Positions 1 to 37,864 of a stretch of 60,584 bases of DNA are shown piece by piece; the stretch's first letter is position 1, and each line of letters opens with the position of its first letter. The translations under genes and the position numbers were made by a program. The stretch lies in NCBI GenBank assembly GCA_017309115.1, contig JAFLEF010000047.1:1-60584 (forward strand). The letters run 5' to 3'. The stretch is from Verrucomicrobiota bacterium. Lineage in GTDB: Bacteria > Verrucomicrobiota > Verrucomicrobiia > Limisphaerales > UBA9464. Below the pieces are notes generated by a model, which worked only from the letters and a program-made list of their open reading frames with translations, made no database searches and was not told where the DNA came from.

Positions 1-236
1 TAGCGCAGCGCCAGCGCCTGAGCGAACCGGCCCATGGACTCGTAGGGATGCTGGTAATCGATGGGATTGGAGAAGTCCCGCGGAGTGGTTCGGACGGTGG
101 AGGCCGTGGAACCTGGGGAAGCCCCTGGCGGGGGCGTGGGGGTCGCCGCGAAATCCCGACTCTGGGCTTGGCGCCGAGCCTGGGCGTTTTTGAGGTACTT
201 GGATGAATGGTATAGGACTTGGTGCTTTTCATGCAC
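1..236 (-). CDS. Unknown protein, N-terminal fragment running off the left edge
   Basis: An open reverse-strand frame starts at a GTG (236-234), after an in-frame TGA upstream, and stays open to the window edge. About 78 residues are visible. Codons end mostly in G or C, as in real genes of this genome, whereas the overlapping forward frame looks like its shadow. The protein begins VHEKHQVLYHSSKYLK, has a Thr/Pro-rich linker near residues 35-50, and continues with DYQHPYESMGRFAQALALR. I do not recognise the family. It does not look like the N-terminus of an IntI integrase, although its position and orientation, divergent from the cassette array, are where an integrase could sit. The start codon is uncertain. 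Confidence 0.4.
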   Translation of the reverse strand, partial: MHEKHQVLYHSSKYLKNAQARRQAQSRDFAATPTPPPGASPGSTASTVRTTPRDFSNPIDYQHPYESMGRFAQALALR

Positions 237-330
237 CGCCCAGCCTATACGCTCCGCCCATGCAGTCAGTCAGAGCCAGCCCAGTTACGAATCCCGCCCC
301 AACCCCCGCTTCGCCGCGCAGCGGCTTAGT

Positions 331-421
331 TCAACCATGCGCTGCAGCGAACCCGGCGGGAGCGTCACGGTTGCAATCGTCGCCTCCCGTGCGCCGGGTC
401 GCTGAGCTTGGGTCGTTCGGC
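331..421 (+). other. Integron attC-like site 1
   Basis: Left box TTCAACC and right box GTTCGGC (415-421) flank an imperfect palindrome. The left arm ATGCGCTGCAGCGAACCCGG pairs with the right arm CCGGGTCGCTGAGC. The next gene begins 6 nt beyond the right box. It is the first site of the array that I can recognise. The right box is not the usual GTTAGGC form. Confidence 0.55.
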
Positions 422-427
422 TACACG

Positions 428-688
428 ATGACGATCATCGCCAAAGCACTTGTTGAGTTGGCTGGTTGCTTGGAGATTGCCAAGTTCGATGATCCGGATG
501 AAGCACAAGGCGCTGAGGATCTCCTGGAGTGGTGCCTGATCGAGGCTTCCCCGCAGGAGAGAGAGATCTTAGCGAAGGTAGCACGGGAGCGCGCACAAGA
601 GGAGGCAGCCAAAAGTTCAGATCGCCAGATCATCGAATTCTACGAACGTTTTGCGGCAAGAGCAGAAGACCACCAGAAATATGGATAG
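428..688 (+). CDS. Cassette gene 1: small helical hypothetical protein
   Basis: This frame encodes 86 residues beginning MTIIAKALVELAGCLE. The ATG lies 6 nt after the right box of attC 1, and the stop is directly followed by attC 2, the tight packing expected of an integron cassette. The protein is acidic and rich in Glu, Ala and Lys, so probably largely alpha-helical, with no signal peptide or membrane segment. A longer upstream frame extension would run through the attC site and is unlikely. I recognise no family. A small cytoplasmic regulator or antitoxin-like protein is possible but unsupported. Confidence 0.65.
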   Translation: MTIIAKALVELAGCLEIAKFDDPDEAQGAEDLLEWCLIEASPQEREILAKVARERAQEEAAKSSDRQIIEFYERFAARAEDHQKYG

Positions 689-691
689 AAA

Positions 692-784
692 GCCGAACAA
701 GCCGGATGCACCGAACCCCGCGATAGCGCCTCAGTTCCATGTCGGGCGTCATGGGCGCGGGGTCGGTGATCCGGGTCGTTAGGA
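692..784 (+). other. Integron attC-like site 2
   Basis: Left box GCCGAAC (692-698) and right box GTTAGGA (778-784) flank arms GCCGGATGCACCGAACCCCG and CGCGGGGTCGGTGATCCGG, which pair with a few bulged bases, as attC sites do. It closely resembles attC 3 (1852-1945), so the two sites share ancestry. Confidence 0.85.
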
Positions 785-795
785 AAAGAGGCACT

Positions 796-1848
796 ATGTC
801 GCACGCCTACGAATCCCTATTCGGCGACCCGAACCTCCCGTTTGCTTGGGACCTTACAAATTGGCCAGCAGCCGGCGTGGGGACGCACATTTGCGGAACG
901 TTGCGGAAAGCAATTAAAGAACAATTCTCAGACCTCGCCGATATGTTCCCTTTCCTGCACGGCGTCGAGTCAAAGGTTCACTTGGGGCAATGGTATATAT
1001 GCGCGTCACTCCTTTCAATTGAAGGCACCAATACCGGAGGCGAATTCGACGCAAATGAGATCAAGGAGCTTGAAGATGCTGCGGAGTGCGGTCCTCTGTC
1101 CTACGAGCAGGTCGTAACTCTTCTACCATCCAAATGGTTCTCTTCGGATCGATTCACGTACATCGGCCCTTACAGAAAGCCTTTCGGATGTTGGCCACAC
1201 TTGGTGCTTCATCTGAACTCTTGGTTGCAGCAGTTCGTGCTCCCAGATGTTCTTGAGCGGAATCAACGCCGCGTGCAGCGCGTTATTCCGGTAGCCCCAC
1301 GCTTTGATCCATTGCCAATTTTAGACTCATTATGGGTCCTCGAGTCGGAAGAGGCTTCAACTCAGGGCACAGGCTTCAGGCTGGATGGTGTGGGATTTGT
1401 TACAAACGCTCACGTATTGTACCCGGATACGCACGCGTTTCGAGCGACAGATCCGTCCGTTAAATGGCCGGTTCGGACGATTCGTCGAGACGACGTGATT
1501 GATTTGAGTGTATTTGAGATCGACTCGAGCGCTGGATCGAGTCTGCATAGGGGAAGCGCAGATGAGCTGAAACTTATGGACCATTTGCTTTTGGCTGGTT
1601 TTCCCAATTATAGGTTGGGCGATTCCGGGTACGTAGCACCGGGTCTTGTGACAGGCTTTCGGATGGTTTCCGCGATTCGACGAATCCTGACCAACGCCCC
1701 CATCATTGCTGGAAACAGTGGAGGTCCCGTCGTCGGTGCGGACGGGCGAGTGTGTGGAGTCGCAGTTACAGGCGCGCCGGCCATGATTGCGTCGAATGAA
1801 ACAGAAAACCACGGGATCATTCCGATCGATGCGTTGCGCTTCTTATAA
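796..1848 (+). CDS. Cassette gene 2: trypsin-like serine protease domain protein
   Basis: This 350-residue protein has a C-terminal trypsin-like (chymotrypsin-fold, Trypsin_2 type) peptidase domain from about residue 185 to the end. The catalytic triad is readable: H206 in FVTNAHVLYPD, D236 in DVIDLSVFEID and S308 in AGNSGGPVVG. The first 180 residues, beginning MSHAYESLFGDPNLPFAW, match no domain I know and may sense a target or regulate the protease. There is no signal peptide, so it should act in the cytoplasm. The ATG at 796 is 11 nt after the right box of attC 2; an upstream extension would overlap the site. It is large for a cassette gene. Intracellular trypsin-like proteases occur in phage-defence and stress systems, but a defence role here is inference. 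Confidence 0.85.
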   Translation: MSHAYESLFGDPNLPFAWDLTNWPAAGVGTHICGTLRKAIKEQFSDLADMFPFLHGVESKVHLGQWYICASLLSIEGTNTGGEFDANEIKELEDAAECGPLSYEQVVTLLPSKWFSSDRFTYIGPYRKPFGCWPHLVLHLNSWLQQFVLPDVLERNQRRVQRVIPVAPRFDPLPILDSLWVLESEEASTQGTGFRLDGVGFVTNAHVLYPDTHAFRATDPSVKWPVRTIRRDDVIDLSVFEIDSSAGSSLHRGSADELKLMDHLLLAGFPNYRLGDSGYVAPGLVTGFRMVSAIRRILTNAPIIAGNSGGPVVGADGRVCGVAVTGAPAMIASNETENHGIIPIDALRFL

Positions 1849-1851
1849 GAA

Positions 1852-1945
1852 TCCTAACAAACCGGATGCACACGAACCCCGCGACAACGCCGCAGTTCCA
1901 AACCGAGCACGACAAGCGCGGGGTCGGTGATCCGGAGCGTTAGCC
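1852..1945 (+). other. Integron attC-like site 3
   Basis: This is the clearest attC of the array. Left box TCCTAAC (1852-1858) and right box GTTAGCC (1939-1945) flank arms CCGGATGCACACGAACCCCG and CGCGGGGTCGGTGATCCGG, which pair over about 20 bp with the small bulges typical of attC folding. The site follows the protease stop by 3 nt, and the next gene starts 11 nt after it. Confidence 0.9.
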
Positions 1946-1956
1946 GTCATCGCGTC

Positions 1957-2271
1957 ATGCAAAAGCCCAAGATCGGCAAGGCTTACACGTTCGTTCGGAA
2001 GCGCGGTGATGCTTTCGAGCACACCGATTTCACTCGGCATGAGGAAGGCAGCGCGGGATTTGTGGCAGACGGACATGCCGCCATTTTTGAGTGCCACCCA
2101 GATGCTTGGCAGCGCGCATTGTCGGAACTTGCACGTCTAGGCTTTGTCGAGTTGCGCGAGGCGAGAGAGTCGGGTCTTGTTCCTGCCGGGTGGCAGCCCA
2201 CACCCAAGACTTCGACGCTTCATGCCTGTGGCATCGTTACGCCAGTTTCAAATGAGAAGACGAACGGCTAA
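1957..2271 (+). CDS. Cassette gene 3: hypothetical protein
   Basis: The frame encodes 104 residues starting MQKPKIGKAYTFVRKRGD, with the ATG 11 nt after the right box of attC 3. The stop codon TAA lies inside the left box of attC 4. The middle, with FVADGHAAIFECHPDAWQ followed by a helix ending LARLGFVELREARESG, suggests a small mixed alpha/beta cytoplasmic domain. There is no signal peptide, membrane segment or recognisable catalytic motif. I do not recognise a family. Its packing between two attC sites supports a real cassette gene. Confidence 0.7.
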   Translation: MQKPKIGKAYTFVRKRGDAFEHTDFTRHEEGSAGFVADGHAAIFECHPDAWQRALSELARLGFVELREARESGLVPAGWQPTPKTSTLHACGIVTPVSNEKTNG

Positions 2272-2361
2272 CCAGATCACTGGACCGAACGCGGGCGGGC
2301 CGAGTCAGTTTGCAATTCCAACGCCACTCGCCGCCCGCGTCGGTCAGTTCTGGCGTTGTGC
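2266..2361 (+). other. Integron attC-like site 4
   Basis: Left box GGCTAAC (2266-2272) overlaps the stop of the preceding gene. The right box is GTTGTGC (2355-2361). Arms AGATCACTGGACCGAACGCG and CGCGTCGGTCAGTTCTGG pair imperfectly. The site is closely similar to attC 12 (7130-7224). Confidence 0.85.
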
Positions 2362-2370
2362 CAATAAAGC

Positions 2371-2895
2371 ATGAGCCCTCGTCAGCTTATCGATCTCCAG
2401 TTGGATGCGATGTTTGGGCGCACGATGCCGCAGAAAATGCAAGCGTTGGTTGACGCGGACATTAATGAGGGCGGTTGGCAAGATGGATATGAGTTAGCTT
2501 TTATATCAGCAAGCCTGGATCAAGCCGGGGGCCAGAAATTATTGAACATGGTGCTTGCGCAACATCCAGAGTTCGTGATCGACCAAGCTCGATTGCTCGC
2601 GGCAATCGAGAGTGTACTCCCACAGAGGCGAGTTGGAGCTCGCGTCCTTTGGATTGTAGATGAGACTGGCTCCTATGCACTAACCGACAGCCTCAGAGTC
2701 GCACGATTTGAAGGGAGCCGGGTGATCTGGAGGAGCCCAAGGATTTCTTGGGATGGAATCGAGTTTGATTCTCTTATCGATGGCAGGTTGCGGGGCAGAG
2801 CTTGGTGGTTGGGATCCCATGAATCACCTGACTCACCATTTGAGTTTGATTTCGAGTCTGGAGAGCTTCTCGTCGGTCAGATCGTTCCCGAATGA
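2371..2895 (+). CDS. Cassette gene 4: hypothetical protein
   Basis: A 174-residue protein begins MSPRQLIDLQLDAMFGRT, with its ATG 9 nt after attC 4. The N-terminal 85 residues look helical. The C-terminal half, about residues 90-174, is rich in beta-strand patterns such as VARFEGSRVIWRSPRISWDG and FEFDFESGELLVGQIVPE, reminiscent of a small beta-barrel or WD-like sheet at the end of other cassette proteins. No signal peptide or catalytic motif is evident. Function unknown. attC 5 follows within 8 nt of the stop. Confidence 0.75.
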   Translation: MSPRQLIDLQLDAMFGRTMPQKMQALVDADINEGGWQDGYELAFISASLDQAGGQKLLNMVLAQHPEFVIDQARLLAAIESVLPQRRVGARVLWIVDETGSYALTDSLRVARFEGSRVIWRSPRISWDGIEFDSLIDGRLRGRAWWLGSHESPDSPFEFDFESGELLVGQIVPE

Positions 2896-2902
2896 ATGAC
2901 AG

Positions 2903-3028
2903 GCACAACCAGACGCTGGAGACGAACTGCCGCCCCGCCTCTCCGCTTGACACGGGGCAGGAATTCGGTTGGGCCGTGCACGCTCGACCTTGGCTTTCCG
3001 GCGGCAGTCGCTCAGCTTTGCGTTCGGT
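2903..3028 (+). other. Integron attC-like site 5
   Basis: A long site of about 126 bp. The left box region GCACAACC and right box GTTCGGT (3022-3028) flank arms AGACGCTGGAGACGAACTGC and GCAGTCGCTCAGCTTTGC, which pair with bulges. The central spacer is long and variable, as in the longest known attC sites. Confidence 0.75.
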
Positions 3029-3061
3029 AATAATGCAAGCCACCCCGGCAAAGGACCAACG

Positions 3062-3553
3062 ATGAAGTGCGCTCCGTATCCAAGAGGTTTACGGGGTCTT
3101 TTCGTCTTCGCGATGATTGCAGCATTGGCGGTGGGGTTTCTTTTCATGACGAGAGTTGCCACACCATCGTTTCCTACTACGACGCTTACCCTTCTTCGGC
3201 TGACGAATCTCCCCCCGATTGGCATCATGACTGCGTTCGCCGTGAGCAACGGAAGTCCGCACCGACTGTTATATGATCCACGAATGGTCAAATATCTCAC
3301 CTCGACTGGCTGGGTGGTTGTGCCTCCCGGCGCGATTGTAGATCGTGTCGGCGTGGTCAGTCCCGGACAGACCTACGTCTTCCTAGTGCCTGGTGTTGTC
3401 ACGAATCACTCCCTTCGAGTTCAGGTCGTGTCTCGACGGAAAACAGAACTACAAAGGGTGTTCACTAAAGTCGATCAGTTCGCGCAGAGAGCGAGTAAGA
3501 CAGAGGCGTGGTTTGGGAGGCGTTACGAGGCTATTCTTGAGCCCAGTCACTGA
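3062..3553 (+). CDS. Cassette gene 5a: membrane-anchored hypothetical protein
   Basis: The frame encodes 163 residues beginning MKCAPYPRGLRGLFVFAM. A single hydrophobic segment at about residues 13-32 acts as a membrane anchor or uncleaved signal. It is followed by an extracytoplasmic beta-rich domain whose core reads VVVPPGAIVDRVGVVSPGQ then YVFLVPGVVTNHSLRVQVVSRR. The start lies 33 nt after attC 5. Only 38 nt without an attC separate it from the next frame, so the two genes may travel as one cassette. Family not recognised; an envelope role is inferred only from the anchor. Confidence 0.7.
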   Translation: MKCAPYPRGLRGLFVFAMIAALAVGFLFMTRVATPSFPTTTLTLLRLTNLPPIGIMTAFAVSNGSPHRLLYDPRMVKYLTSTGWVVVPPGAIVDRVGVVSPGQTYVFLVPGVVTNHSLRVQVVSRRKTELQRVFTKVDQFAQRASKTEAWFGRRYEAILEPSH

Positions 3554-3591
3554 CCAAACTGAAACCCCGCGTTGCCCGCATTCCTCATTCC

Positions 3592-4149
3592 ATGCTCCTA
3601 CGCCTGTCCAACACTCTCATTGAACATTGGCGCGTCGCTTACGAGGCCAATGATCGGCCAGTCCGGGGCTTTCCTCAGACCTGGAGTTTTGCCGCCTTCG
3701 CGGCTGACTCTGAAGCGCACGTGGTGCTGGCCATTGAGGAGTATACGCTCTTCACGATTTTGTTTCCTCACGTGTGGACGGGTTCGTTGGGCGATGCATT
3801 GATCGCGTTTGAGGATCGCGTATCAGAGTTGTTATCCAACGCACGGTCCCACGAGGGCTTCCAGACTGTTGGATTTGCAATCACAAAGCTTACTGACCAG
3901 AGGATTGCCAGCCATGCCGAGCACGTTGCGTCAGTGGTCCGAGGGAACCCGGAGCTAATTAGGGAGTTCGGATTGATTCGCGGCATTCGATCCATTGAGG
4001 AGCGCATCAATTCGCATTCACTGGAATTTCTGAATGGGCAGACTCCGATTCAGGCATTTCTGCACGCGGCTAGGGGCGAACCATCGACTGCAGCCAACCG
4101 CGGGACGCGCATTCGTTCCAAACCTTTCCGCCCCGTCCGCGGTACCTGA
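3592..4149 (+). CDS. Cassette gene 5b: hypothetical protein, possibly DUF6933-like
   Basis: This 185-residue frame begins MLLRLSNTLIEHWRVAYEAN. The opening residues and the stretch VVLAIEEYTLFTILFPHV recall DUF6933-type proteins, which start with a similar strand and contain a W-x-A-x-F / FTLFxxLxP pattern. This is a weak recognition made by eye. The protein is soluble, with a helical middle (about residues 70-130). The last 25 residues are encoded by DNA that forms attC 6, which suggests the natural stop was lost on joining to the site, or that overlap is normal here. It may share a cassette with the preceding membrane protein. Confidence 0.65.
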   Translation: MLLRLSNTLIEHWRVAYEANDRPVRGFPQTWSFAAFAADSEAHVVLAIEEYTLFTILFPHVWTGSLGDALIAFEDRVSELLSNARSHEGFQTVGFAITKLTDQRIASHAEHVASVVRGNPELIREFGLIRGIRSIEERINSHSLEFLNGQTPIQAFLHAARGEPSTAANRGTRIRSKPFRPVRGT

Positions 4150-4164
4150 GCCGGATCGTTTGGC
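4075..4164 (+). other. Integron attC-like site 6
   Basis: Left box GGCGAACC and right box GTTTGGC (4158-4164) flank arms ATCGACTGCAGCCAACCGCG and CCGCGGTACCTGAGCCGGAT, which pair imperfectly. The site overlaps the 3' end of the preceding gene. The right box departs from the GTTRRRY consensus at one position. Confidence 0.6.
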
Positions 4165-4180
4165 CGGTCGCACGCACACC

Positions 4181-4438
4181 GTGAATCCATTTTTCCAGAA
4201 GGCGCTAGCCAGCGCGTTCCTTTTGTGGGGCGTTGCGGGCGGCTTCGGCTTGCGGCGAGACATTCGCACTGGAAGGACGACGTCGGGCACTGGTCGCAAC
4301 AGTCGCGTGGTTCCTGTGTCTCGTGATGAGGCTCCGAGTCGCTTCTGGACTTGCATCGCGATCAACGCTGTCTGCATCGCGGCTATTATCGGTATTGGTA
4401 TTTGGGTCTTGGTAGACGGGTTGAGGGGATTTAGATGA
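4181..4438 (+). CDS. Cassette gene 6: small two-helix membrane protein
   Basis: A GTG at 4181, 16 nt after attC 6, opens a frame of 85 residues. It holds two hydrophobic segments, at about residues 4-24 (FLLWGVAGGFGL) and 56-79 (AINAVCIAAIIGIGIWVLV), joined by a basic loop, and ends LVDGLRGFR. Upstream codons in the same frame run through the attC site and are not taken as coding. No family recognised. Small membrane proteins are common cassette cargo. The GTG start and short length make the call moderate. Confidence 0.5.
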   Translation: MNPFFQKALASAFLLWGVAGGFGLRRDIRTGRTTSGTGRNSRVVPVSRDEAPSRFWTCIAINAVCIAAIIGIGIWVLVDGLRGFR

Positions 4439-4456
4439 TAAACCGGCGATGCCTCT

Positions 4457-4509
4457 TGCTAATTCGGAAGCCTCGGAGGGGCCGCCTTCGGTGAGCCGAA
4501 ATGTTGGCG
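4457..4509 (+). other. Short integron attC-like site 7
   Basis: A compact palindrome of 53 bp. Left box TGCTAAT and right box GTTGGCG (4503-4509) flank arms TTCGGAAGCCTCGG and CCTTCGGTGAGCCGAA, close to the smallest known attC length. The next gene starts 2 nt downstream. It is weaker than its neighbours. Confidence 0.5.
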
Positions 4510-4511
4510 TC

Positions 4512-4889
4512 ATGACAGCCGTCCGCCACTCTTTATTTCTTCTCGTCGCCGTGTTCGCTGTGTCATGTGGACGGAGAGCGGACGTGCATTGGCGCGATGG
4601 GAATTTTGAAGTCTACGCTTTGGACATGGACTTCACCGCTACCAAGCTCGGCTACAATCACCATCCCGGCATTTTGGGGCTTGTGGAGGCCGAAGTCGTA
4701 GCGGCAGGCAGCACGGCTCAGTGGGTTTTCGTCGAGCGTAGAGTTTCAGGGCGCACAGAGTTCTACATTGTTCCAAAGGAGGGGATGCCACAGCATCATT
4801 CAGGCACAACCGAAGGACCATTTTCAGACACACAGTTTCGAGAGTTGCGGGCAACCCGACAGTTGCCAGAGTTTACTTGGAGGAAATAG
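4512..4889 (+). CDS. Cassette gene 7: putative lipoprotein
   Basis: The frame encodes 125 residues beginning MTAVRHSLFLLVAVFAVSC. The hydrophobic leader ends in a lipobox-like AVSC with C19 as the probable lipidation site, so the mature protein should be tethered to a membrane. The mature domain of about 105 residues is beta-rich (VHWRDGNFEVYALD, VFVERRVSGRTEFYIVPKEG) and ends FTWRK. I chose the ATG at 4512 because it precedes the signal directly and lies next to attC 7. An ATG at 4501 is out of frame. Function unknown. Confidence 0.7.
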   Translation: MTAVRHSLFLLVAVFAVSCGRRADVHWRDGNFEVYALDMDFTATKLGYNHHPGILGLVEAEVVAAGSTAQWVFVERRVSGRTEFYIVPKEGMPQHHSGTTEGPFSDTQFRELRATRQLPEFTWRK

Positions 4890-4896
4890 AAATGAC

Positions 4897-5021
4897 CCAG
4901 AACAGTCGCTGCACACGAATCGCCGCTCCCCATATCGGGCTCGGGCGCACTGGTTCAACGGACGCTGGATTCGCTGCCAGTGCCCGATTCCGGCGGCGGT
5001 CGGTGCGCTGATGCGTTCACC
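4897..5021 (+). other. Integron attC-like site 8
   Basis: Left box CCCAGAAC and right box GTTCACC (5015-5021) flank arms AGTCGCTGCACACGAATCGC and GCGGTCGGTGCGCTGATGC. The inner segment GGACGCTGGATTCGC is shared with attC 9 and attC 13, showing common descent. Confidence 0.8.
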
Positions 5022-5029
5022 GGATTCGA

Positions 5030-5374
5030 ATGCCCATGGATCAGCCACCAGTCATCAAACCATCTGAACATTGGACATCCAGAGCTCCTCTTTGGTTGGC
5101 TGTCGGAGCAAATGTCTCCAATTTCCTCCTGAGCATTCAGTTCTATTCTTTTCCATCTGGCATACACATTCGACCCATGATGTGGGCTGTCTGGGTGTCC
5201 TGTATTGCCGCCGGAGGTTTCAGTGCCGTGCTGTTGGTGTGGCCTGTGATTCGACGAGGGCCGCGCCGCTTCCGATCGTGGATCACGGTGATCCTAGCTC
5301 TCACCCCTTTGCCACTCGCATCCGCGATGTTGCATCATGCCGCCAGAGTGAGAGGTTTCTTTATCGCACCATGA
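5030..5374 (+). CDS. Cassette gene 8: three-helix membrane protein
   Basis: A 114-residue frame starts MPMDQPPVIKPSEHW, 8 nt after attC 8. Three hydrophobic segments are visible, at about residues 20-41, 49-73 and 83-101, with a basic loop (RRGPRRFRS) between the second and third that fits a cytoplasmic side. No conserved motif identifies a family. attC 9 starts 9 nt after the stop. Confidence 0.7.
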   Translation: MPMDQPPVIKPSEHWTSRAPLWLAVGANVSNFLLSIQFYSFPSGIHIRPMMWAVWVSCIAAGGFSAVLLVWPVIRRGPRRFRSWITVILALTPLPLASAMLHHAARVRGFFIAP

Positions 5375-5382
5375 ATCACCTA

Positions 5383-5506
5383 GCTAACCCGATCGCTCCA
5401 CTCGAACCGTCGCTGCCCGTATCGACTTGGATCGACCCGGTTCGTCGGACGCTGGATTCGCAGTCAGCGCCCGCTCCCGGCGGCGGTCGGTGAGCTCTTG
5501 CGATGT
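5383..5506 (+). other. Integron attC-like site 9, with altered right box
   Basis: The left box is GCTAACC (5383-5389). Arms CGCTCCACTCGAACCGTCGC and GGCGGTCGGTGAGCTC pair. The expected right box reads GCGATGT (5500-5506), so the conserved GTT is changed. Most of the site matches attC 13 (7572-7693), including the inner stretch TTCGTCGGACGCTGGATTCG. Confidence 0.75.
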
Positions 5507-5774
5507 CGAGGGCTGGGATGTCACCTCAAAACCGAGGTTCGCCGGAGGAATCGGCGATGGTTTCAGCGTAGACATCGAGTCCGCCCTACCTAATGGTTTT
5601 CTTCGTGGGTGACGAGTTCCTAGGACATTCTCGGTTATTCGTTCGGCGGTGTGATTCGTCGGTCGACAACCTTCTAGCTCTGGACCCCGCTTCGGCGGAG
5701 TTTAACCCACGCTGCACTGGCTCGTCACCCACACTAGATCGAACACGGTCGAGCCATAGGGTCTCGGCGATGCC
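5507..5774. other. Cassette 9 region without a convincing gene, with a weak attC-like end
   Basis: This 268-bp stretch lies between attC 9 and the next gene. The only + frame of any length (5593-5778, 61 codons, ATG start) has no recognisable features and runs through the palindrome at its end. The 3' end (5700-5773) has arms CCACGCTGCACTGGCTCG and CGAGCCATAGGGTCTCGGCG that pair imperfectly, ending GCGATG like attC 9. It may be a cassette with no functional gene, or a decayed one. Confidence 0.4.
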
Positions 5775-6722
5775 ATGAAGCGCTTCTTCCAACTTGTTCT
5801 AGCCGCCGTGGGGCTGTGTTTTGGTTGCTCGCAGTCAGGCGTCGTGACTCCACGCGAGTTCACCCGAGAGTTCGCCGAGGCATTAAGGAAAGCCAGTCCG
5901 GAATTGAAGGTCGCCGTCGTAAGGGACCTGGAACTGAAGATTACCTCTGCGGATGGGCGCGACTCGACTTCGTTCTTGGACAACGCGTACGATACCTACA
6001 AGCAGGATCCGAAAGCAAAAGCGGACGTGATCCAGCGATTTGTTGCCGCTGGCCTGGAGACTATTGGGATAGTGAGAGACGGAGTAGATCGCACACGGAT
6101 CGTTCCGGTCATAAAGGATCGACCTTGGCTGGAGGAGACTCGGCAAGTGTTATTGAGCCGTGGAGCAAAGGAAGTTCCAGAACATGTCTATGAGGATTTC
6201 AGCCCCGATTTGATCATTCTGTACGCGGAGGATTCCCCGAAGAACATCCGTTACCTGGGACCGAAAGACTTGGAGTTTGCAAAGGTCGAACGATCGGAGT
6301 TGAGGGCTCTTGCCTGCGAGAATCTCAAACGCCTGCTCCCCAAGATCGAGCGGCACGGCACAAACGGTCTTTACATGATTACTGCTGGAGGCGACTACGA
6401 GGCCAGTCTGTTGGTGCTCGATTCGATTTGGAGCGATGGCGAGATGGATGTGAGCGGTGACGTGGTGGTCGCCGTTCCGACCAGAGATCTCCTGCTGGTG
6501 ACCGGAAGTCAGAATCCACAAGGAATTGAGAAAGTCAGGCAGATGGTCAAGGAGGCTTCAACTGCGGGTTCGTACCGGCTGACACAGAAGCTCTTTGTGT
6601 ATCGGAACGACAGATTCACTGAATTCAAAGGGAAAGCCGAACCAGTGGGGCCAGCGAACGGGAGCCAGCCGATTCGCTTAGAGAAAAATCGAACATCATC
6701 GGAGGCTAGCTTTCGTCGCTGA
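5775..6722 (+). CDS. Cassette gene 10: DUF1444 (YtpQ-like) family protein, probably exported
   Basis: This 315-residue protein starts MKRFFQLVLAAVGLCFGC. The hydrophobic leader ends near C18, suggesting an exported and possibly lipidated protein, though the lipobox is not canonical. The rest resembles DUF1444: the N-terminal ELKITSADGRDSTSFLDNAY, the block IVPVIKDRPWLEE, the central DLIILYAEDSPKNIRYL, and the C-terminal VAVPTRDLLLVTGSQNPQG. DUF1444 members elsewhere are mostly cytoplasmic proteins of unknown biochemical function, so a leader is a notable addition. It is the second-largest cassette gene and sits directly after the region with altered attC boxes. Its last 27 codons overlap an attC-like palindrome. 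Confidence 0.8.
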   Translation: MKRFFQLVLAAVGLCFGCSQSGVVTPREFTREFAEALRKASPELKVAVVRDLELKITSADGRDSTSFLDNAYDTYKQDPKAKADVIQRFVAAGLETIGIVRDGVDRTRIVPVIKDRPWLEETRQVLLSRGAKEVPEHVYEDFSPDLIILYAEDSPKNIRYLGPKDLEFAKVERSELRALACENLKRLLPKIERHGTNGLYMITAGGDYEASLLVLDSIWSDGEMDVSGDVVVAVPTRDLLLVTGSQNPQGIEKVRQMVKEASTAGSYRLTQKLFVYRNDRFTEFKGKAEPVGPANGSQPIRLEKNRTSSEASFRR

Positions 6723-6736
6723 CTTTTGTGCTATGC
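6636..6736 (+). other. Weak integron attC-like site 11
   Basis: Left box GCCGAACC lies inside the end of the preceding gene. Arms GGCCAGCGAACGGGAGC and GCTTTCGTCGCTGACTT pair imperfectly. The expected right box is degenerate (TGCTATG). The next gene's ATG overlaps the site end. The call rests on position and arm pairing. Confidence 0.45.
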
Positions 6737-7134
6737 CTAGTCTCGAATCCACAAAGCTTCGCCGCAAAAGCTGGACCGAGATACACGCATACTATCGGTC
6801 GGCCGTTGAGAGATCCGGTCTAGAAGAGTGGCGTGGGATGTGGGACTTCTCGCGAAACCTGGAGCAGCGCTCGCGCCTGCAATCCTTGATTACCGTCGGC
6901 AGCTTGGGGTGCATCTATGTCTATCGAGATCCAGACTGCACCGCAGAGAAGGGGTACATTCTCGTCGCCCCACCCCGCCCAGAGCCTGGGAATGTCCGGA
7001 TCCGGATCGGCTACTTTCTTGGAACAGCGTTCAATTCCGCCGCCCTTACCGAATTCAGCGATGCTGACTCGGCTGTCGAATACTTTGAGCGGTGCTTGTC
7101 ACAATTTGACTTCGAAAAAGTCGCTGGTGTATGA
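6733..7134 (+). CDS. Cassette gene 11: hypothetical protein
   Basis: A 133-residue frame begins MPSLESTKLRRKSWTEIHAY. A helical first half is followed by beta-strand patterns (SLGCIYVYRDPD, GYILVAPPRPEPG, VRIRIGYFLGTAFN) and a final helix AVEYFERCLSQFDF. There is no signal peptide. The layout resembles small immunity-type domains, but no specific family is recognised. The stop lies within attC 12. Confidence 0.7.
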   Translation: MPSLESTKLRRKSWTEIHAYYRSAVERSGLEEWRGMWDFSRNLEQRSRLQSLITVGSLGCIYVYRDPDCTAEKGYILVAPPRPEPGNVRIRIGYFLGTAFNSAALTEFSDADSAVEYFERCLSQFDFEKVAGV

Positions 7135-7224
7135 GCAGGTGACTGGTCCGAACGCGGTCGGTCCGCGTCAGTCTTCAATTCGGACACCACTGGCCGCCCG
7201 CGTCGGTCAGTTCTGCCGTTAGGT
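7130..7224 (+). other. Integron attC-like site 12
   Basis: The right box is GTTAGGT (7218-7224), a good consensus match. Arms GGTGACTGGTCCGAACGCGG and CCGCGTCGGTCAGTTCTG correspond almost base for base to attC 4. The left box is degenerate (TATGAGC instead of GGCTAAC), probably because it overlaps the preceding stop. Confidence 0.8.
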
Positions 7225-7240
7225 CAATCGTTCGTGCGCC

Positions 7241-7567
7241 ATGCCATTTCATTCCGCGAGAATCGAGACCAAGAAGATCACCGACTGGGCAAGCTTTCAT
7301 TCGGTGTTCGCCGAGACGCTGGGCTTTCCAGATTTCTACGGTCGGAACATGAATGCGTGGATTGATTGCATGACCCACATCGACGATGGCATGACACGCT
7401 TCACAGTCGCCCCCGGGGAGTTGTTCCATTTGGAGATTGCCGACACCAAGGATTTTGCGACGCGGCTTCCGGAGATTTATCAGGTTTTGATTGAGGATTC
7501 AGCGTTTGTGAACTGGCGACGCGTTGACGTCGGCGAGCCGCCAATTCTAGCATTGGTATTATTATGA
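7241..7567 (+). CDS. Cassette gene 12: barstar-like ribonuclease-inhibitor domain protein
   Basis: The 108-residue product matches the barstar family pattern. A first strand (HSARIETKKI) is followed by WASFHSVFAETLGFPDFYGR, NMNAWIDCMTHI and a C-terminal strand region. The FPDFYGRN-x-x-A-W-x-D-C block is the family signature that surrounds the barnase-binding helix. Barstar inhibits the secreted RNase barnase by blocking its active site; relatives often act as immunity proteins against RNase toxins from competitors. No RNase gene lies nearby, so this would be an orphan immunity cassette. The ATG is 16 nt after attC 12, and attC 13 starts 4 nt after the stop. Confidence 0.85.
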   Translation: MPFHSARIETKKITDWASFHSVFAETLGFPDFYGRNMNAWIDCMTHIDDGMTRFTVAPGELFHLEIADTKDFATRLPEIYQVLIEDSAFVNWRRVDVGEPPILALVLL

Positions 7568-7571
7568 TTGG

Positions 7572-7693
7572 CCACGAACGCCCCACTCGAACCGCCGTTG
7601 CCCGTATCGACATGGATCCGCCGGGTTCGTCGGACGCTGGATTCGCCGCCATCTCCGGTTTCCTCGGGCGGTCGCTGAGCTCTGGCGTTGGCC
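7572..7693 (+). other. Integron attC-like site 13
   Basis: The left box region is CCACGAAC and the right box GTTGGCC (7687-7693). Arms GCCCCACTCGAACCGCCG and GGGCGGTCGCTGAGCTCTGG pair. Much of the spacer is nearly identical to attC 9. Confidence 0.8.
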
Positions 7694-7775
7694 GACATCG
7701 CACGATGCCCAGGTTCAACACGATTGCTCCACCGAGGCATGGCCCCGGCGAAGGCTAGAGAATGCCAGAGGGGTG

Positions 7776-7812
7776 AACCGCAGATTAAGCGCCGATTGAA
7801 CGCAGATTTCTT
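7776..7812 (+). repeat. Partial copy of the dispersed terminal-inverted-repeat element
   Basis: The segment beginning AACCGCAGATTAAGCG matches the outer part of the terminal repeat of the 204-bp element at 40396-40599. Only one end is present. It sits where the 5' end of the following cassette gene should be, so it may have replaced the original start region. Confidence 0.65.
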
Positions 7813-7878
7813 CCGGCGAAAAGATCAAAGAGCACGCTTGCCGCCGCTTCAGCTGACTTCATTCAGAAATTCGCAGAT

Positions 7879-8157
7879 TTGGCGAACCGTCTGGCTGAAA
7901 TGGGTGTCGCCGTCCATACGGCGGACCTTCGATGGGGCAGCTTTGGTAGCTGGACTTTAATGGTGGTAGCGCGGCATGAGGCGGTGCGGTTCTCCTACGA
8001 CGGACGCGATTCGTTCCTCATCGTTGAGGTATCTCCGGCCATGAATCACAGCCACCCAAACGATTGGAAGGAACTCCTCGTGAAAGGATTGGATAATCGG
8101 CAGGACGAGGCTGTAGCGTTTGTCGAAGAACTCCTTCGGAAGCGATTCTCAATCTAG
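7879..8157 (+). CDS. Cassette gene 13: hypothetical protein, 5' end possibly disrupted
   Basis: From a TTG at 7879 the frame encodes 92 residues, but the frame is open from 7789 and the amphipathic segment SADFIQKFADLANRLAEMG suggests coding begins upstream. No ATG or GTG exists there, and the DNA between 7776 and 7812 is a repeat fragment, so the native start may have been lost. The protein is a small alpha/beta domain (DLRWGSFGSWTLMVVARHEA, VRFSYDGRDSFLIVEVS) ending in a helix VAFVEELLRKRF. Family unknown. Confidence 0.5.
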   Translation: MANRLAEMGVAVHTADLRWGSFGSWTLMVVARHEAVRFSYDGRDSFLIVEVSPAMNHSHPNDWKELLVKGLDNRQDEAVAFVEELLRKRFSI

Positions 8158-8162
8158 GACCA

Positions 8163-8242
8163 GGCAACGAGCACAGCCGATCGCTTCCCACGAACCGGCG
8201 CCATTTCGACGTCCGTCGGCTGACGAACCGGGAGCGTTCCCG
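8163..8242 (+). other. Integron attC-like site 14, last of the array
   Basis: Left box GGCAACG and right box GTTCCCG (8236-8242) flank arms AGCACAGCCGA and TCGGCTGACGAACCGGGAGC, with one arm longer by several bases. It follows the last cassette gene within 10 nt. No further site is seen to the right, so the array ends here. Confidence 0.5.
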
Positions 8243-8306
8243 TTTGAACTCTTTCCCCCGGTTCGCCAGTTTCCCAAGTCGTGGTTCGCCCCGTGGCCAG
8301 CCCGCT

Positions 8307-8361: not shown

Positions 8362-11094
8362 ATGCGCACGTTATTGTCTCTCTGGAACCGCCTTTGCAGG
8401 CGGCATCGTTTCTTACACGTCTCGTTGGCCGTGCTCACGGGGACGCGACTTTTGAGTGCTGCGCCCGGAGATCTGGACCTGAGCTTCGACCCACCCTCTG
8501 CCTGGGCTTCGCTCGGCCCTGGTTTTGCAGTCGTTGATGGCCAAACCTATTACGTCAATTCGGCGCGGAAGCTGGCTCGGCTTCGCGAGGATGGGAGCGC
8601 CGACGAGGATTGGGCGCTCGCCATACCAGCTCAGGGCGCGTCGTCGCTGACGAGCACGGCCTTCGGCGGGTGGGTTGTTCGCGACTTTTCTATGGCCTAC
8701 TTGGTGCATCCGGACCAGTCCTTTCAGCGACTCGCGGTCAACATGGGCTTTTCCAGCGACTTTCCCGAAGACGATGGCGGGGTGGTCATCGACGGCCTGA
8801 GAAAGATAGGTCACGACGGCCAAGTGGACCTTCGTTTCGCCCGGAACCGTTCTGTAGTGGGGACCTCTTTCAACGATGGAGCGGGGACCGTAGTCACCGG
8901 GGGCATTTTTGTCAGCTCGGCTCGGGATCGTCAGGGAAGTTACCTCGTCGCCGGCAATTTTCGGGAAGTGGACGGGATCGAACGTTGGGGATTGGTTCGG
9001 TTTCGCACCGACGGGAGCGTGGACTTGAAATGGAACCCCGCCCCCGCCCTGAAAATCGAATCGAATGGGACCAACGGAATCAACTGCTTGCCGAACTGCA
9101 TGTCATCGGGACCGAACGATTCGGTCGTGGTCTGCCTCAGTTATGTGTCCACGAATGGACTACCCGACCAACGACTGGCCCGGATCACGGCTACCGGGGA
9201 GGTTGAGGCGGTGTTTTCCGTGCCCACCCGAACCTTCAGCCGTCCCTTGGTCCAACCGGACGGAAAGATCCTCTTCGCGGGCCAGTTTGCCCAATGGGAC
9301 GGCCAGCCAGCCACCGGTCTAGTTCGCCTCCACCCGAATGGTTCACTCGATTCTTCGTTCTCTCTCGACCTGACTGCCACCAACACCCCGAACGTGTATG
9401 CCGTGGAACACGACGGATCCGGGAGGATCTGGTTGCGGGGAAGTTTCACTCATGTCCACGGGATTGCCCGTCCGGGCGTGGCTCGCGTCTTCGCCTGGGA
9501 GCCGGAACTGACCCCGCCCTCCCTGACGCCATCTCCGTCGCCGCGGAGGATTGGCACCAACGAGATCCTGCACCTCGCGGCAACCGTTGGCGGCTACCCG
9601 CGCCCGCGGCTTCAATGGTACCGCCACGGAACTCTATTGCCGGGTGAAACCAACCGGGGACTGCGCCTCCCCGTCCACGCCGATACCGGCTTGGGTGAGT
9701 TCCGCCTCGTCGCCCAAAATGACCTCGGCACGAACGAAGTCACCTTCCCGGCAATAGAACGAGCCGTTCGCAGTCCGATGCTCGCCGGAGACGATCCGAA
9801 TTATCTACGGCCCTCAACCAATTTTGTGACCGTTTCCCAGATCGTGTCGCTGGCGGATGGCAGCATCCTGGCCGGCGGAGGCGTCTGGGGCGGGGGCTTT
9901 GGCACCCAGCCCATGGTCGTTCGGCTCGCACCCGACGGAACGTTGGATCCGTCCTTCGGCACGGACGGAGTGGTGTCGGGCAACGGCGCGGCGGAGCGCC
10001 TCAGGGTACTGCCGGACGGCGGAATTCTCGTCGCCGGTGAGTTCACCCGCCTGGAAGGCGAACCTGCGTCCGGATTGGTCGAACTCGACGCCCGAGGCCA
10101 GCGCGTGAACCGCAGATTTCCAACCCTCGAAAATCCCCGGGTGACGGCCGTTCTCCCCTTGCCCGACGGCGGGCATCTTCTCGGCGGACGATTTTCGAAA
10201 GTGGACGGAATCGATCGGCGCAATCTGATTCGCCTGCGGCCGGACGGGACAGTTGACCCGTCCTTCCAATCCCCGTTGTTGCGGTGGCAGGGCGTGGATC
10301 AATTGGAACTGGATTCCCGAGGCGGCGTGCTGGTGGCAGGCGCGAGAATATATGCCGAACTTGGAGAATCCCTCACCAACCCACCGCCGACCGGACTGCT
10401 GCGGTTGCGCCTCGACGGAGCGGCGGATCCGGTGGACCCGAGCTTTCAACGGCAGACCAATCACCTTCGGTATCTGTGGATCGAGCCCACCGGTACGCTG
10501 CTGGTCGGGATGCCTCCCCGCCGGCTGCAGGCCGATGAAACTCTCCTCACTTCTTTTGAAACATCGCCGGATCTGAGCCTGGAGAATCGCGGATTCAGGA
10601 CGGAGCATATGATGGTGCGACTGCCGGACGGCGGCGTGGTGGCGGTGCGGAATCCGCGTGCGGGTGTGGTGGCAGAACTGGCGCGGTGGCGAACAACCGG
10701 GGAACGAGACTTTGAATTTCGCCGGGTATTTGGTTCCCCGGTGGATGGCTCTCTAATCCAAGCTTTGGGTGTAGCTCCCGATGGGGCGGTCTTGGTCGTG
10801 ACAACTTCGGGTACGACGACGCAACCCCCGGCGACTGTCTGGCGGGTGCGCCGTTTGCTGCCCGATTCCGACCTACGACTACTCGATCTCCGCGTAGCGA
10901 ACGGATCCTTCACCGCCACCCTGGCCTCCCAAGTAGGACGCCGATATGACGTCACCGTGGGAGGATTGGGGCGGCCCGAGGGTGCCCTGCTCGAATCCTG
11001 GGATGGGGACGGTTACCTCATGGAACTGGGAACCCCGGGCGATGCAACCCAGCGATTCATGGAGCTGAGGCGAGAGTGGGCCCCCGAGCCGTAG
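8362..11094 (+). CDS. Secreted delta-60-repeat protein with an Ig-like domain
   Basis: This 910-residue protein starts with a basic, hydrophobic leader (RFLHVSLAVLTGTRLLSAA) that looks like a signal peptide. It contains many delta-60-type repeats, each about 55-60 residues, with the diagnostic G-x-x-D-x-S/R-F motif: DLDLSFDPP near residue 37, GQVDLRFARN, GSLDSSFSLD, GTLDPSFGTDG, GTVDPSFQSP and DPVDPSFQRQ. These repeats are expected to build beta-propellers. An Ig-like domain (about 385-470, with LQWYRHGTLLPGETN) splits the repeat region. The last 80 residues form a separate beta domain. Delta-60 proteins are typical large secreted proteins of Verrucomicrobiota. The specific role is unknown; surface binding is a guess. 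Confidence 0.9.
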   Translation: MRTLLSLWNRLCRRHRFLHVSLAVLTGTRLLSAAPGDLDLSFDPPSAWASLGPGFAVVDGQTYYVNSARKLARLREDGSADEDWALAIPAQGASSLTSTAFGGWVVRDFSMAYLVHPDQSFQRLAVNMGFSSDFPEDDGGVVIDGLRKIGHDGQVDLRFARNRSVVGTSFNDGAGTVVTGGIFVSSARDRQGSYLVAGNFREVDGIERWGLVRFRTDGSVDLKWNPAPALKIESNGTNGINCLPNCMSSGPNDSVVVCLSYVSTNGLPDQRLARITATGEVEAVFSVPTRTFSRPLVQPDGKILFAGQFAQWDGQPATGLVRLHPNGSLDSSFSLDLTATNTPNVYAVEHDGSGRIWLRGSFTHVHGIARPGVARVFAWEPELTPPSLTPSPSPRRIGTNEILHLAATVGGYPRPRLQWYRHGTLLPGETNRGLRLPVHADTGLGEFRLVAQNDLGTNEVTFPAIERAVRSPMLAGDDPNYLRPSTNFVTVSQIVSLADGSILAGGGVWGGGFGTQPMVVRLAPDGTLDPSFGTDGVVSGNGAAERLRVLPDGGILVAGEFTRLEGEPASGLVELDARGQRVNRRFPTLENPRVTAVLPLPDGGHLLGGRFSKVDGIDRRNLIRLRPDGTVDPSFQSPLLRWQGVDQLELDSRGGVLVAGARIYAELGESLTNPPPTGLLRLRLDGAADPVDPSFQRQTNHLRYLWIEPTGTLLVGMPPRRLQADETLLTSFETSPDLSLENRGFRTEHMMVRLPDGGVVAVRNPRAGVVAELARWRTTGERDFEFRRVFGSPVDGSLIQALGVAPDGAVLVVTTSGTTTQPPATVWRVRRLLPDSDLRLLDLRVANGSFTATLASQVGRRYDVTVGGLGRPEGALLESWDGDGYLMELGTPGDATQRFMELRREWAPEP

Positions 11095-11127: not shown

Positions 11128-11160
11128 GTCTTCCTTCTCTCAGCTCTCAGCTCTCAGCTA
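11128..11160. repeat. CTCTCAG short tandem repeat
   Basis: The spacer after the delta-60 gene contains CAGCTCTCAGCTCTCAGC, the same 7-base motif that recurs near 23655, 37590 and 37728. Here it stands alone, without the larger palindromic repeat seen elsewhere. Confidence 0.6.
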
Positions 11161-23363: not shown

Positions 23364-23710
23364 TTCTGATTACGTTGGCCTACGCACCATGCCAACCTGC
23401 GGACCGGATTCAAGGCTGCGCCCCGAACCTCGCCGAAAAGTCACCGTCTACCGTTCATCGGCCCCGTTGAGAGTTGGGAAAAAAAAGCCGGTAGGGCGAG
23501 GTTCCACCGAGCCGTTCGCGTCCGGGCAAATGACGCGCCACCACTCCACCCACGCACGGCTCCGCACAGCGTCGCCCTACCAAAGGGCCAGTTGAGAGTT
23601 GAAAGTTGAGAGTTGAGAGAAAAGCGAGTGCCTTACCGCTTCCCCTTTCCGACCTCTCAGCTCTCAGCTCTCAGTTCTCAGCTCTCAGCTCTCAGCTTGG
23701 CCTCCAGCCT
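23364..23710. repeat. Spacer with composite palindromic repeat, copy A
   Basis: This 347-bp spacer holds three repeat parts. First is a palindromic unit from about 23492, beginning GGTAGGGCGAGGTTCCACCG and ending CGTCGCCCTACC near 23582. Second is a GTTGAGAG tract (23591-23618). Third is a CTCTCAG tract (23655-23697). The last two are roughly reverse complements of each other. The promoter of the giant gene must lie at the left of this spacer. No coding frame is supported. Confidence 0.7.
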
Positions 23711-26012: not shown

Positions 26013-26087
26013 TGGTGCCCCGGCCAGGACTTGAACCTGGAACCAACTGATTAAGAGTCAGCTGCTCTGCCATTGAGCTACCGAGGC
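26013..26087 (-). tRNA. tRNA-Lys (anticodon CTT)
   Basis: Read on the minus strand, the acceptor arm GCCTCGG pairs with CCGGGGC. The anticodon stem GCTGA/TCAGT encloses the loop CTCTTAA with anticodon CTT. The T arm holds CAGGTTCAAGTCCTG. The CCA end is encoded (26013-26015). The length is 75 nt including CCA. Confidence 0.97.
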
Positions 26088-37354: not shown

Positions 37355-37864
37355 GACGGGATCAATTTGAGCGCGAGCAGTTGAGAGTTGAGAGATGAAA
37401 GTTGAGAGAAAAAGGCCGGTGGGGCGAGATCCGTCGAGCCGTCCGCTTCCCGGCGAATCGACGCGTCACCCCTCCACCACCACGCGGCTCCGCCGAGCGT
37501 CGCCCTACCGAAAGCCCAGTTGAGAGTTGAAAGTTGAGAGTTGAGAGAAAAGCGATCGCCTTACCGCTTACCGCCTCCCCTTCCGACCCCACAGCTCTCA
37601 GCTCTCAGCTTTCCCCACCCCGGTGGGGCGAGGCTCCGCCGAGCCGTTCGCGTCCCGGCGAATTGATGCGTCACCACATCATCCATGCACGGCTCCGCAG
37701 AGCGTCGCCCTACCGCATCCCGACCTCTCAGCTCTCAGCTCTCCCCGTCCCGGCGAATCAACGCGTTACCACTCAACCCCGCACGGCTCCGCCGAGCGTC
37801 GCCCTACCGACACAAAAAAAAACGGCACCCGTGACCGGGTGCCGTTGAGTCGTGAAGCCAGGGC
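37355..37864. repeat. Repeat-filled spacer: three copies (B, C, D) of the composite palindromic element
   Basis: This 510-bp spacer is almost entirely repeats. Copy B spans about 37419-37512 with GTTGAGAG tracts on both sides (37377-37408 and 37517-37548) and a CTCTCAG tract after it (37590-37612). Copy C spans about 37622-37712, with a CTCTCAG tract at 37728-37744. Copy D (37747-37810) keeps only the inner and right part. The shared unit reads GGTGGGGCGAGGCTCCGCCG at its left and CGGCTCCGCCGAGCGTCGCC at its right. No coding frame is supported. Confidence 0.8.
37814..37846 (-). terminator. Rho-independent terminator of the HU gene
   Basis: On the minus strand AACGGCACCCG and CGGGTGCCGTT form a stem of about 11 bp with a short loop, followed at once by a run of nine T (37814-37822 complement). 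It begins 19 nt after the HU stop. It is the most classical intrinsic terminator in the window. Confidence 0.9.

Follow-up and report, generated by a model that had tools for sequence, protein, structure and literature searches.

A run of short genes alternating with palindromic repeats was investigated at the left end of a contig from a Verrucomicrobiota bacterium, as a possible integron cassette array. The window, by which we mean the whole stretch of DNA analyzed (1–60584), comprised contig C54 of a draft genome of 7.53 Mb in 111 contigs (completeness 95.3%, contamination 3.69%). Position 1 of the window was the start of the contig, and the array lay at that end. A scan of the window with Rfam at gathering thresholds returned a tRNA at 26016–26087 (−) as its sole match; consequently, home-made models of the cassette recombination sites (attC) were needed. 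The window supplied 12 candidate attC sites and contig C3 a further 11, and 19 of the 23 were aligned. Model R1 was built from 19 sites, nine of them from the window, and is therefore partly circular there, whereas model R2 was built from 23 sites that all lay on contigs other than the window. Since R1 contains window sites, the attC calls in the window rest on R2.

R2 identified 11 attC sites between 328 and 8247, all on the + strand, with expectation values (E) from 1.9e-17 to 0.0036 (Table 1). On the other 52 kb of the window it gave only three matches (E 0.16–0.68), which is chance level. Folding of the 19 aligned sites with RNAalifold gave 11 consensus pairs, seven of them with compensatory changes, and the R2 sites placed the paired R and L boxes characteristic of integrons at cassette ends. 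The sequence-only reading had proposed an integron cassette array or a cluster of attC sites lacking an integrase (CALIN), an interpretation that was to fall if a covariance model found no significant attC and related genomes had these genes with ordinary spacers. As to the first of these points, significant sites were found with a model independent of the window, which supports the proposal. The count of "at least a dozen" sites was about right, with 11 supported and 12 or 13 possible. Between the gene ending at 3553 and the gene starting at 3592, no attC was found by R1 or R2. The definition of a CALIN (at least two attC sites and no integrase gene, intI, nearby) holds for the 60.6-kb contig taken alone, but the array may extend further left, past the first base of the contig. 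What the window contains is the distal stretch of an integron cassette array.

Table 1. Features at the left end of the window, in order of position.
Feature	Position	Strand	Remarks
End of IS91-like element	1..332	−	Recombinase N-terminal part and terminal sequence CGCCGCGCAGCGGCTTAGTTC (312–332) abutting attC 1
Tyrosine recombinase of element, N-terminal part	3–236 (frame)	−	Continues on C44
attC 1	328..421	+	R2 E=5.9e-10, R1 E=4.2e-13; R'' core is the element junction
Cassette gene, 86 aa	428..688	+	No family assigned
attC 2	692..784	+	R2 E=9.5e-17
Cassette gene, 350 aa	796..1848	+	Trypsin-like peptidase domain, Trypsin_2 E=4.8e-14
attC 3	1852..1945	+	R2 E=1.1e-10
Cassette gene, 104 aa	1957..2271	+	No family assigned
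attC 4	2266..2361	+	R2 E=1.9e-17
Cassette gene, 174 aa	2371..2895	+	No family assigned
attC 5	2902..3028	+	R2 E=4e-8
Cassette gene, 163 aa	3062..3553	+	No family assigned
Gene, 185 aa	3592..4149	+	No family assigned; no attC found before gene
attC 6, divergent	4074..4164	+	R2 E=8.8e-5, R1 E=0.0019
Cassette gene, 85 aa	4181..4438	+	No family assigned
attC-like sequence	4436..4509	+	By eye only; missed by R1 and R2
Cassette gene, 125 aa	4512..4889	+	No family assigned
attC 7	4895..5021	+	R2 E=8.3e-10
Cassette gene, 114 aa	5030..5374	+	No family assigned
attC 8, R' box degenerate	5382..5508	+	R2 E=2e-13, R1 118.6 bits
Cassette gene, 315 aa	5775..6722	+	DUF1444 E=3e-14
Weak attC candidate	6635..6736	+	R1 E=0.0021 only; missed by R2
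Cassette gene, 133 aa	6733..7134	+	No family assigned
attC 9, AAC of R'' lost	7129..7224	+	R2 E=4.6e-15
Cassette gene, 108 aa	7241..7567	+	Barstar E=2.5e-15
attC 10	7567..7693	+	R1 E=2.3e-21, R2 E=1.7e-4
Cassette gene, 92 aa	7879..8157	+	No family assigned
attC 11, distal array end	8161..8247	+	R2 E=0.0036, R1 only E=0.34
First gene past array	8362..11094	+	DUF5122 beta-propeller protein, 910 aa
Next open reading frame after DUF5122 gene	starts 11322	+	955 aa; ileS by eye only

The array had been described as starting at 331, but this left border is not the array's own: positions 1–332 belong to the end of an IS91-like element, and the contig begins within it. Window positions 1–335 matched contig C44 (L110, 14097–14432) at 98% over 336 nt, where the frame continued as a 307-aa tyrosine recombinase. 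The exact end CGCCGCGCAGCGGCTTAGTTC occurred on C20, C44, C46 and C54 and in every case ran on into the AAC of an attC R'' box. Of two further copies, a diverged one at C46:114952 likewise bordered an attC, and one on C101 bordered what appeared by eye to be a decayed attC. A similar end at C1:282962 (three mismatches) was judged a chance match, given its other sequence context and no attC seen beside it. The other end of the element was a hairpin resembling attC. The four bases after the right-end GTT, which itself belonged to the search pattern, were AGGC (three copies), AGCC, CGGC, AGCG, GGGC, GGCC and CGGT in the nine copies, and four of these nine flanks fit GTTRRRY strictly. Two of the copies, both on C94, consisted of the hairpin without an element body, and the hairpin could be an ordinary attC type that was adopted by the element. 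No attC was found near the copy on C55.

The body of the element encoded an IS91-family transposase (NF033538, 311 bits) with Zn_Tnp_IS91 and Y2_Tnp domains in the C10 copy, which is the combination of a Y2 HUH transposase and zinc domain that defines the IS91 family. Such transposases were present in seven of 51 genomes of the taxonomic family, its own included (E ≤ 1e-30). In G008, G009 and G043, from two other genera, the element measured 2.66–2.68 kb, had the same ends and encoded a 363–366-aa tyrosine recombinase. Its left flank was attC-like in G002 (R1 E=2.6e-11), G043 (6e-8), G008 (0.0023) and, by eye only, G009. A 690-aa serine recombinase gene was inserted in the element on C44 (L110:15149–17221).

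Elements of the IS91 family insert next to GTTC or CTTG at one end, without duplication. Here the left end read GTT|GAAC, attC R'' boxes elsewhere in the genome had GTT without GAAC, and GTT stood at both borders of the element. The GTT on both sides points to a G^TT crossover of the cassette-recombination type and not to ordinary IS91 insertion; no empty site was seen. Contigs C54, C72 and C44 ended inside the element, the first two of them in its left half, whereas C10 and C81 began in its right half. C10 and C81 each contained an integron attachment site (attI) without intI. Because both begin in the other half of such an element, the window array may have its head at the attI of C10 or of C81, the pairing being ambiguous.

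The array had also been described as lacking a visible integrase, which is true of C54 but not of the organism, where an intact intI with its attI was found on C3. The gene (C3:5796–6767) scored 417 bits with TIGR02249 (cut-off 265), the sole match over the cut-off among the 20 listed for the genome, and 321.7 with NF011946, below the cut-off of 435. Its product aligned with the IntI4 structure 2A3V (E=5.4e-86, residues 44–363). The alignment included KYPNAPxE..W, which we take to be the integron-specific patch, as well as R, K, HxxR, H and Y residues, which we take to be the catalytic residues of tyrosine recombinases. An integrase with patch and catalytic residues is thus encoded in the genome, outside the window. 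The five best of the 80 IntI relatives listed, a list from which the genome's own records were possibly left out, came from Verrucomicrobia metagenome-assembled genomes at 58–67% identity, and TIGR02249 exceeded its cut-off in 15 of the 51 family genomes. Proteins of ~310 aa resembling IntI on C44 and C46 were considered as integron integrases that lack the patch and serve the arrays, and were dropped; they adjoin IS91-family transposase genes.

Contig C3 contained 11 attC matches, and its cassettes ran away from intI on the opposite strand. A putative attI, TGTCGGTGAATCAACTG^TTA, lies beside intI at C3:5386–5405, upstream of the first cassette. Its identification is supported by similar sites, of the form TGTCGCTCACYTAAMTGTTAGG, which adjoin intI in relatives (L032, L036 and L037). 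Short palindromes (TGTCGGTATATTGCGCAATATCCGACA, TGTCGGACGATTGGTAATCGTCCGACA and others) recurred upstream of the attI copies described below, with arms that differed between copies but matched each other (L017:5400–5625, L156:2520–2760, L200:5950–6100), and are candidates for an operator, an accessory integrase site or a repeat.

The attI core was not confined to C3. The pattern TGTCGGTGAATCAACTG^TTR occurred at 12 places in the genome with up to three mismatches, and a reversed-pattern control gave none. Ten of these had homologous sequence over 47–502 nt upstream and were kept (C3, C10, C26, C28, C37, C67, C70, C81, C86 and C108), while matches at C26:79926 and C49:22229 were dropped because they lacked flank homology. 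An intact intI adjoined the core on C3 only. As on C3, attC sites followed the attI copy on the same strand on C67, C70, C81, C86 and C108, and on C10 the orphan attI was followed by one cassette and then by the IS91-like element. In an ungapped register, the mean pairwise identity of the copies was 0.91 in the core; it was 0.56–0.64 over the 60 nt leading up to the core and 0.28 over the 40 nt that follow TT. A drop in similarity at G^TT is as expected if different cassettes entered each attI copy. Cores were identical over 19 nt in five copies (C3, C10, C26, C81 and C86). The first cassettes differed between heads, apart from C67 and C70, which shared a common first-cassette start.

In related genomes, a looser attI pattern gave one match each in four of seven (G051, G052, G054 and G055). 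The match adjoined intI in G051 and G052. In G054 it headed attC sites (L183:606–2127, contig C390 of a 9-Mb bin), and the contig starts 0.6 kb upstream, where an adjoining intI is possible. This site lay on a contig other than that of the G054 IntI locus (L029), whose own attI looks different. The G055 match had neither attC nor intI in its 1.8-kb locus and was probably due to chance. G002, a genome of the same genus in which no intI was found at the thresholds used, contained a similar attI-like site without intI, followed by a cassette and attC.

Arrays were also dispersed through the genome. In a genome scan with R1, in which 150 of 7155 candidates were scored, at least 124 matches reached E ≤ 1. 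The window and 21 stretches picked from the R1 match list were then clustered with a 4-kb rule at E ≤ 0.1, and the 150 attC matches obtained (147 below 0.01) formed 22 clusters on 20 contigs. Two clusters were single sites, and each of the 22 lay on one strand, consistent with co-oriented cassettes. A second set of 14 stretches yielded 11 more attC matches, several of them weak. The distal end of an array bordered at least 4 kb without attC matches on ten contigs (C17, C20, C54, C57, C67, C68, C72, C75, C92 and C95), and further arrays were found on C16, C36, C44, C46 (two), C90 and C94. As an array has one distal end, we infer at least ten arrays in the genome, and probably about 17. Within the family, R1 matches at E ≤ 0.001 were found in at least 32 of 51 genomes (up to 68 candidates scored per genome).

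When 29 array stretches of the genome were compared, seven pairs of different arrays shared 272–630 nt at 90–97% identity. These included C3 and C81 (94% over 630 nt), C3 and the first C46 array, C46a (93% over 473 nt), C17 and C68 (97% over 272 nt), and C108 and the second C46 array, C46b (93% over 555 nt). Other shared stretches were 73–85% identical, leaving out a C20–C46b match (87%) that is element sequence. In C46b the first cassette was a 100% copy (486 nt) of the fourth, and only an N-terminal intI relic adjoined this array. The duplicate fits recombination supplied from elsewhere, although it could predate the loss of intI. The attI-like region of C46b (L109:15804–16507) was distinct, with ATATACGAACCGG repeats and the N-terminal relic of a different intI.

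On balance, we favor a distributed integron, in which the single IntI of C3 would serve scattered attI heads in trans and the window array would have been cut by an IS91-family element; we consider this reading somewhat probable. Service in trans by one IntI is the most likely mechanism and is offered as a proposal. Made at one locus, IntI would bind both folded attC sites and the attI sites dispersed over the genome, and would insert, excise and copy cassettes among arrays, the other arrays being headed by the same attI core without an intact integrase. The element, with a tyrosine recombinase of its own, sits at G^TT in the R'' box of an attC, its genes lying next to the cassettes, and this recombinase may carry out the integration. 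The assembly would then have broken inside the repeated element, leaving the left edge of the window array at the contig start. The fuller proposal, that one IntI acts in trans on several attI platforms, each admitting cassettes to an array of its own, and that the elements form a new family with an attC-like end, an IS91-type transposase and a tyrosine recombinase, integrating flipped at R'', is put forward more tentatively.

Several observations weigh against a distributed integron. The copies nearest to the C3 attI lie on small contigs (C81, 29 kb; C108, 11 kb; C3 itself, 9 kb), the remaining copies being on contigs of 5.6–111 kb. No attC was found downstream of the attI copies on C26, C28 and C37, the C28 copy lying 0.5 kb from a contig end, and the core at up to one mismatch was absent from all 50 other family genomes. 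Among the 52 ends of the 13 listed pairs of shared stretches (two of them within one array), 25 fell inside attC, which is expected because attC arms are alike, and 10 fell elsewhere. Only 17 lay within 8 nt of an R' end, and the sharing of whole cassettes is thus supported in part. The lowest tetranucleotide correlations with the window flank were those of C20 (0.14), C3 (0.27) and C10 (0.28), all measured on short stretches and all below that of an unrelated Rhizobium (0.43). These contigs may therefore be foreign, and the test speaks neither for nor against a single genome. Lastly, the orphan attI heads may be what is left of once complete integrons from which intI has been lost.

This last point leads to the strongest alternative, in which duplication or transfer once gave the genome several complete integrons, of which a single one kept intI, and the dispersed arrays are decaying CALINs whose attI sites no longer recombine. 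About 80 codons from the start of intI remain on C108, other intI relics occur on C29 and C46, and the attI cores are degenerate on C37 and C67 (altered at the crossover) and on C28 (elsewhere in the core). CALINs have been proposed to be degraded integrons in the part of PMC9024848 consulted. Yet no relic of intI turned up with tblastn (E ≤ 0.01) in the flanks (1.5 kb; 0.2 kb for C67) of the remaining orphan attI copies, half of the ten cores have stayed identical despite diverged flanks, and the heads, C67 and C70 excepted, begin with different cassettes. Cassettes 90–100% alike between or within arrays also argue against this alternative, and we regard fossil integrons as rather unlikely.

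An artefact of assembly or binning, with one superintegron split over contigs or related strains binned together, is improbable. Many arrays did lie at contig ends, drafts are noted to split integrons and inflate CALIN counts in the part of PMC9024848 consulted, and both the contamination of the draft and the tetranucleotide result for C3, C10 and C20 leave room for such an error. A single split array, however, would have one distal end, and ten contigs showed a distal end beside sequence free of attC in the stretch examined. The clusters on C16, C36, C46 (two) and C90 lay inside contigs of 90–235 kb, and attC matches were spread over several contigs in relatives as well (six each in G002 and G046). 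Dispersal by off-target (attG) insertion at random sites or by IS91-like carriage, with the attI-like heads coincidental or co-duplicated, is likewise improbable: element ends do occur inside several arrays, attG insertion is reported for other hosts in the parts of PMC12444791 and PMC12901181 consulted, and no attI core within four mismatches was found at C46a, C16, C36, C90 and C94 in the stretches scanned, but ten attI copies share the core and the upstream homology up to G^TT, and the attC types at the element insertions differ, which speaks for separate insertions and not for one co-mobilised block.

The usual picture of an integron has one integrase, one attI and one array, with CALINs regarded as debris. 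If the distributed integron is correct, at least some CALINs would be working satellites of one integrase, and cassettes would be exchangeable between chromosomal loci. IntI normally disfavors one orientation of attC; the element suggests that this orientation is open to use by a tyrosine recombinase, and it would add a further kind of mobile element associated with attC.

The system resembles sedentary chromosomal integrons in its patch-bearing IntI, divergent attI, co-oriented cassettes, related attC sites and mostly unknown cargo. Those integrons have one attI beside intI, whereas here many arrays and attI copies lie away from it. Like CALINs, the arrays are clusters of attC without an adjoining integrase; unlike them, five orphan attI copies have attC downstream on their own contig, and a sixth, on C10, stands ahead of a cassette and the element. 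IS1111-attC elements, which carry an IS110/IS1111 DEDD transposase, and group IIC-attC introns are likewise mobile elements inserted at attC. The present element differs in its IS91-family Y2 transposase, its tyrosine recombinase and its junction at the R'' G^TT; scans of four element proteins gave Y2_Tnp, phage integrase and the inserted serine recombinase only, with no DEDD transposase. With the IS91 family and ISCR elements it shares the NF033538 match and both transposase domains. It departs from them in the 363–366-aa tyrosine recombinase (three copies), in the attC-like right end and in a left flank that is attC-like and not merely GTTC/CTTG.

In the part of the literature consulted, verrucomicrobial integrons are not new: the sequence-only reading had called them not commonly described, and the review PMC8618304 already lists integrons of Verrucomicrobiota. 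Less usual are the scatter of arrays over the genome, the occurrence of attI copies without intI and the presence of the element at the left border. The portions consulted of PMC12444791 describe Xanthomonas CALINs at several loci away from intI, those of PMC3607928 one attI per integron in Treponema, and those of PMC12444791 and PMC12901181 name the IS1111-attC elements and group IIC-attC introns. In the parts of the integron, CALIN, attG and attI literature that were searched, we came across no account of an integrase with several attI heads, of CALINs headed by attI or of IS91-type elements at attC. The array is of the integron kind, and what appears new is the layout of attI heads and arrays in the genome.

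The genes of the window array were short and on the + strand, as the sequence-only reading had stated. Its distance of 2–33 nt from the GTT box to the gene start was not confirmed, since we measured 9–40 nt where a gene directly follows the box. The claimed lack of promoter-sized spacers held with two exceptions, at 5508–5775 and 7693–7879. The first of these, a non-coding stretch after the degenerate R' box, recurred as an ~80% repeat in the C36 array and, by eye, at the end of C20 (L126:5810–6209 and L127:8541–8679), and might be another attC-like type. Most of the cargo is of unknown kind, as claimed: a Pfam scan of all 13 array genes gave matches at E ≤ 0.01 for three (trypsin-like, DUF1444 and Barstar). 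PADLOC, given 10 of the 13 proteins, matched the 350-aa protein to RT-Protease_XI (E=1.6e-33) over residues 176–347 only. A cassette on C3 (L017:1839–2273, −) encodes an Imm35 immunity-like protein, which together with the Barstar protein of the window hints at immunity genes among the cassettes. Beyond the array, GAGAGCTGAGAGCT-type repeats were observed at 11137–11160, 23590–23697 and 37518–37547 of the window, and these were spread across many other contigs of the genome.

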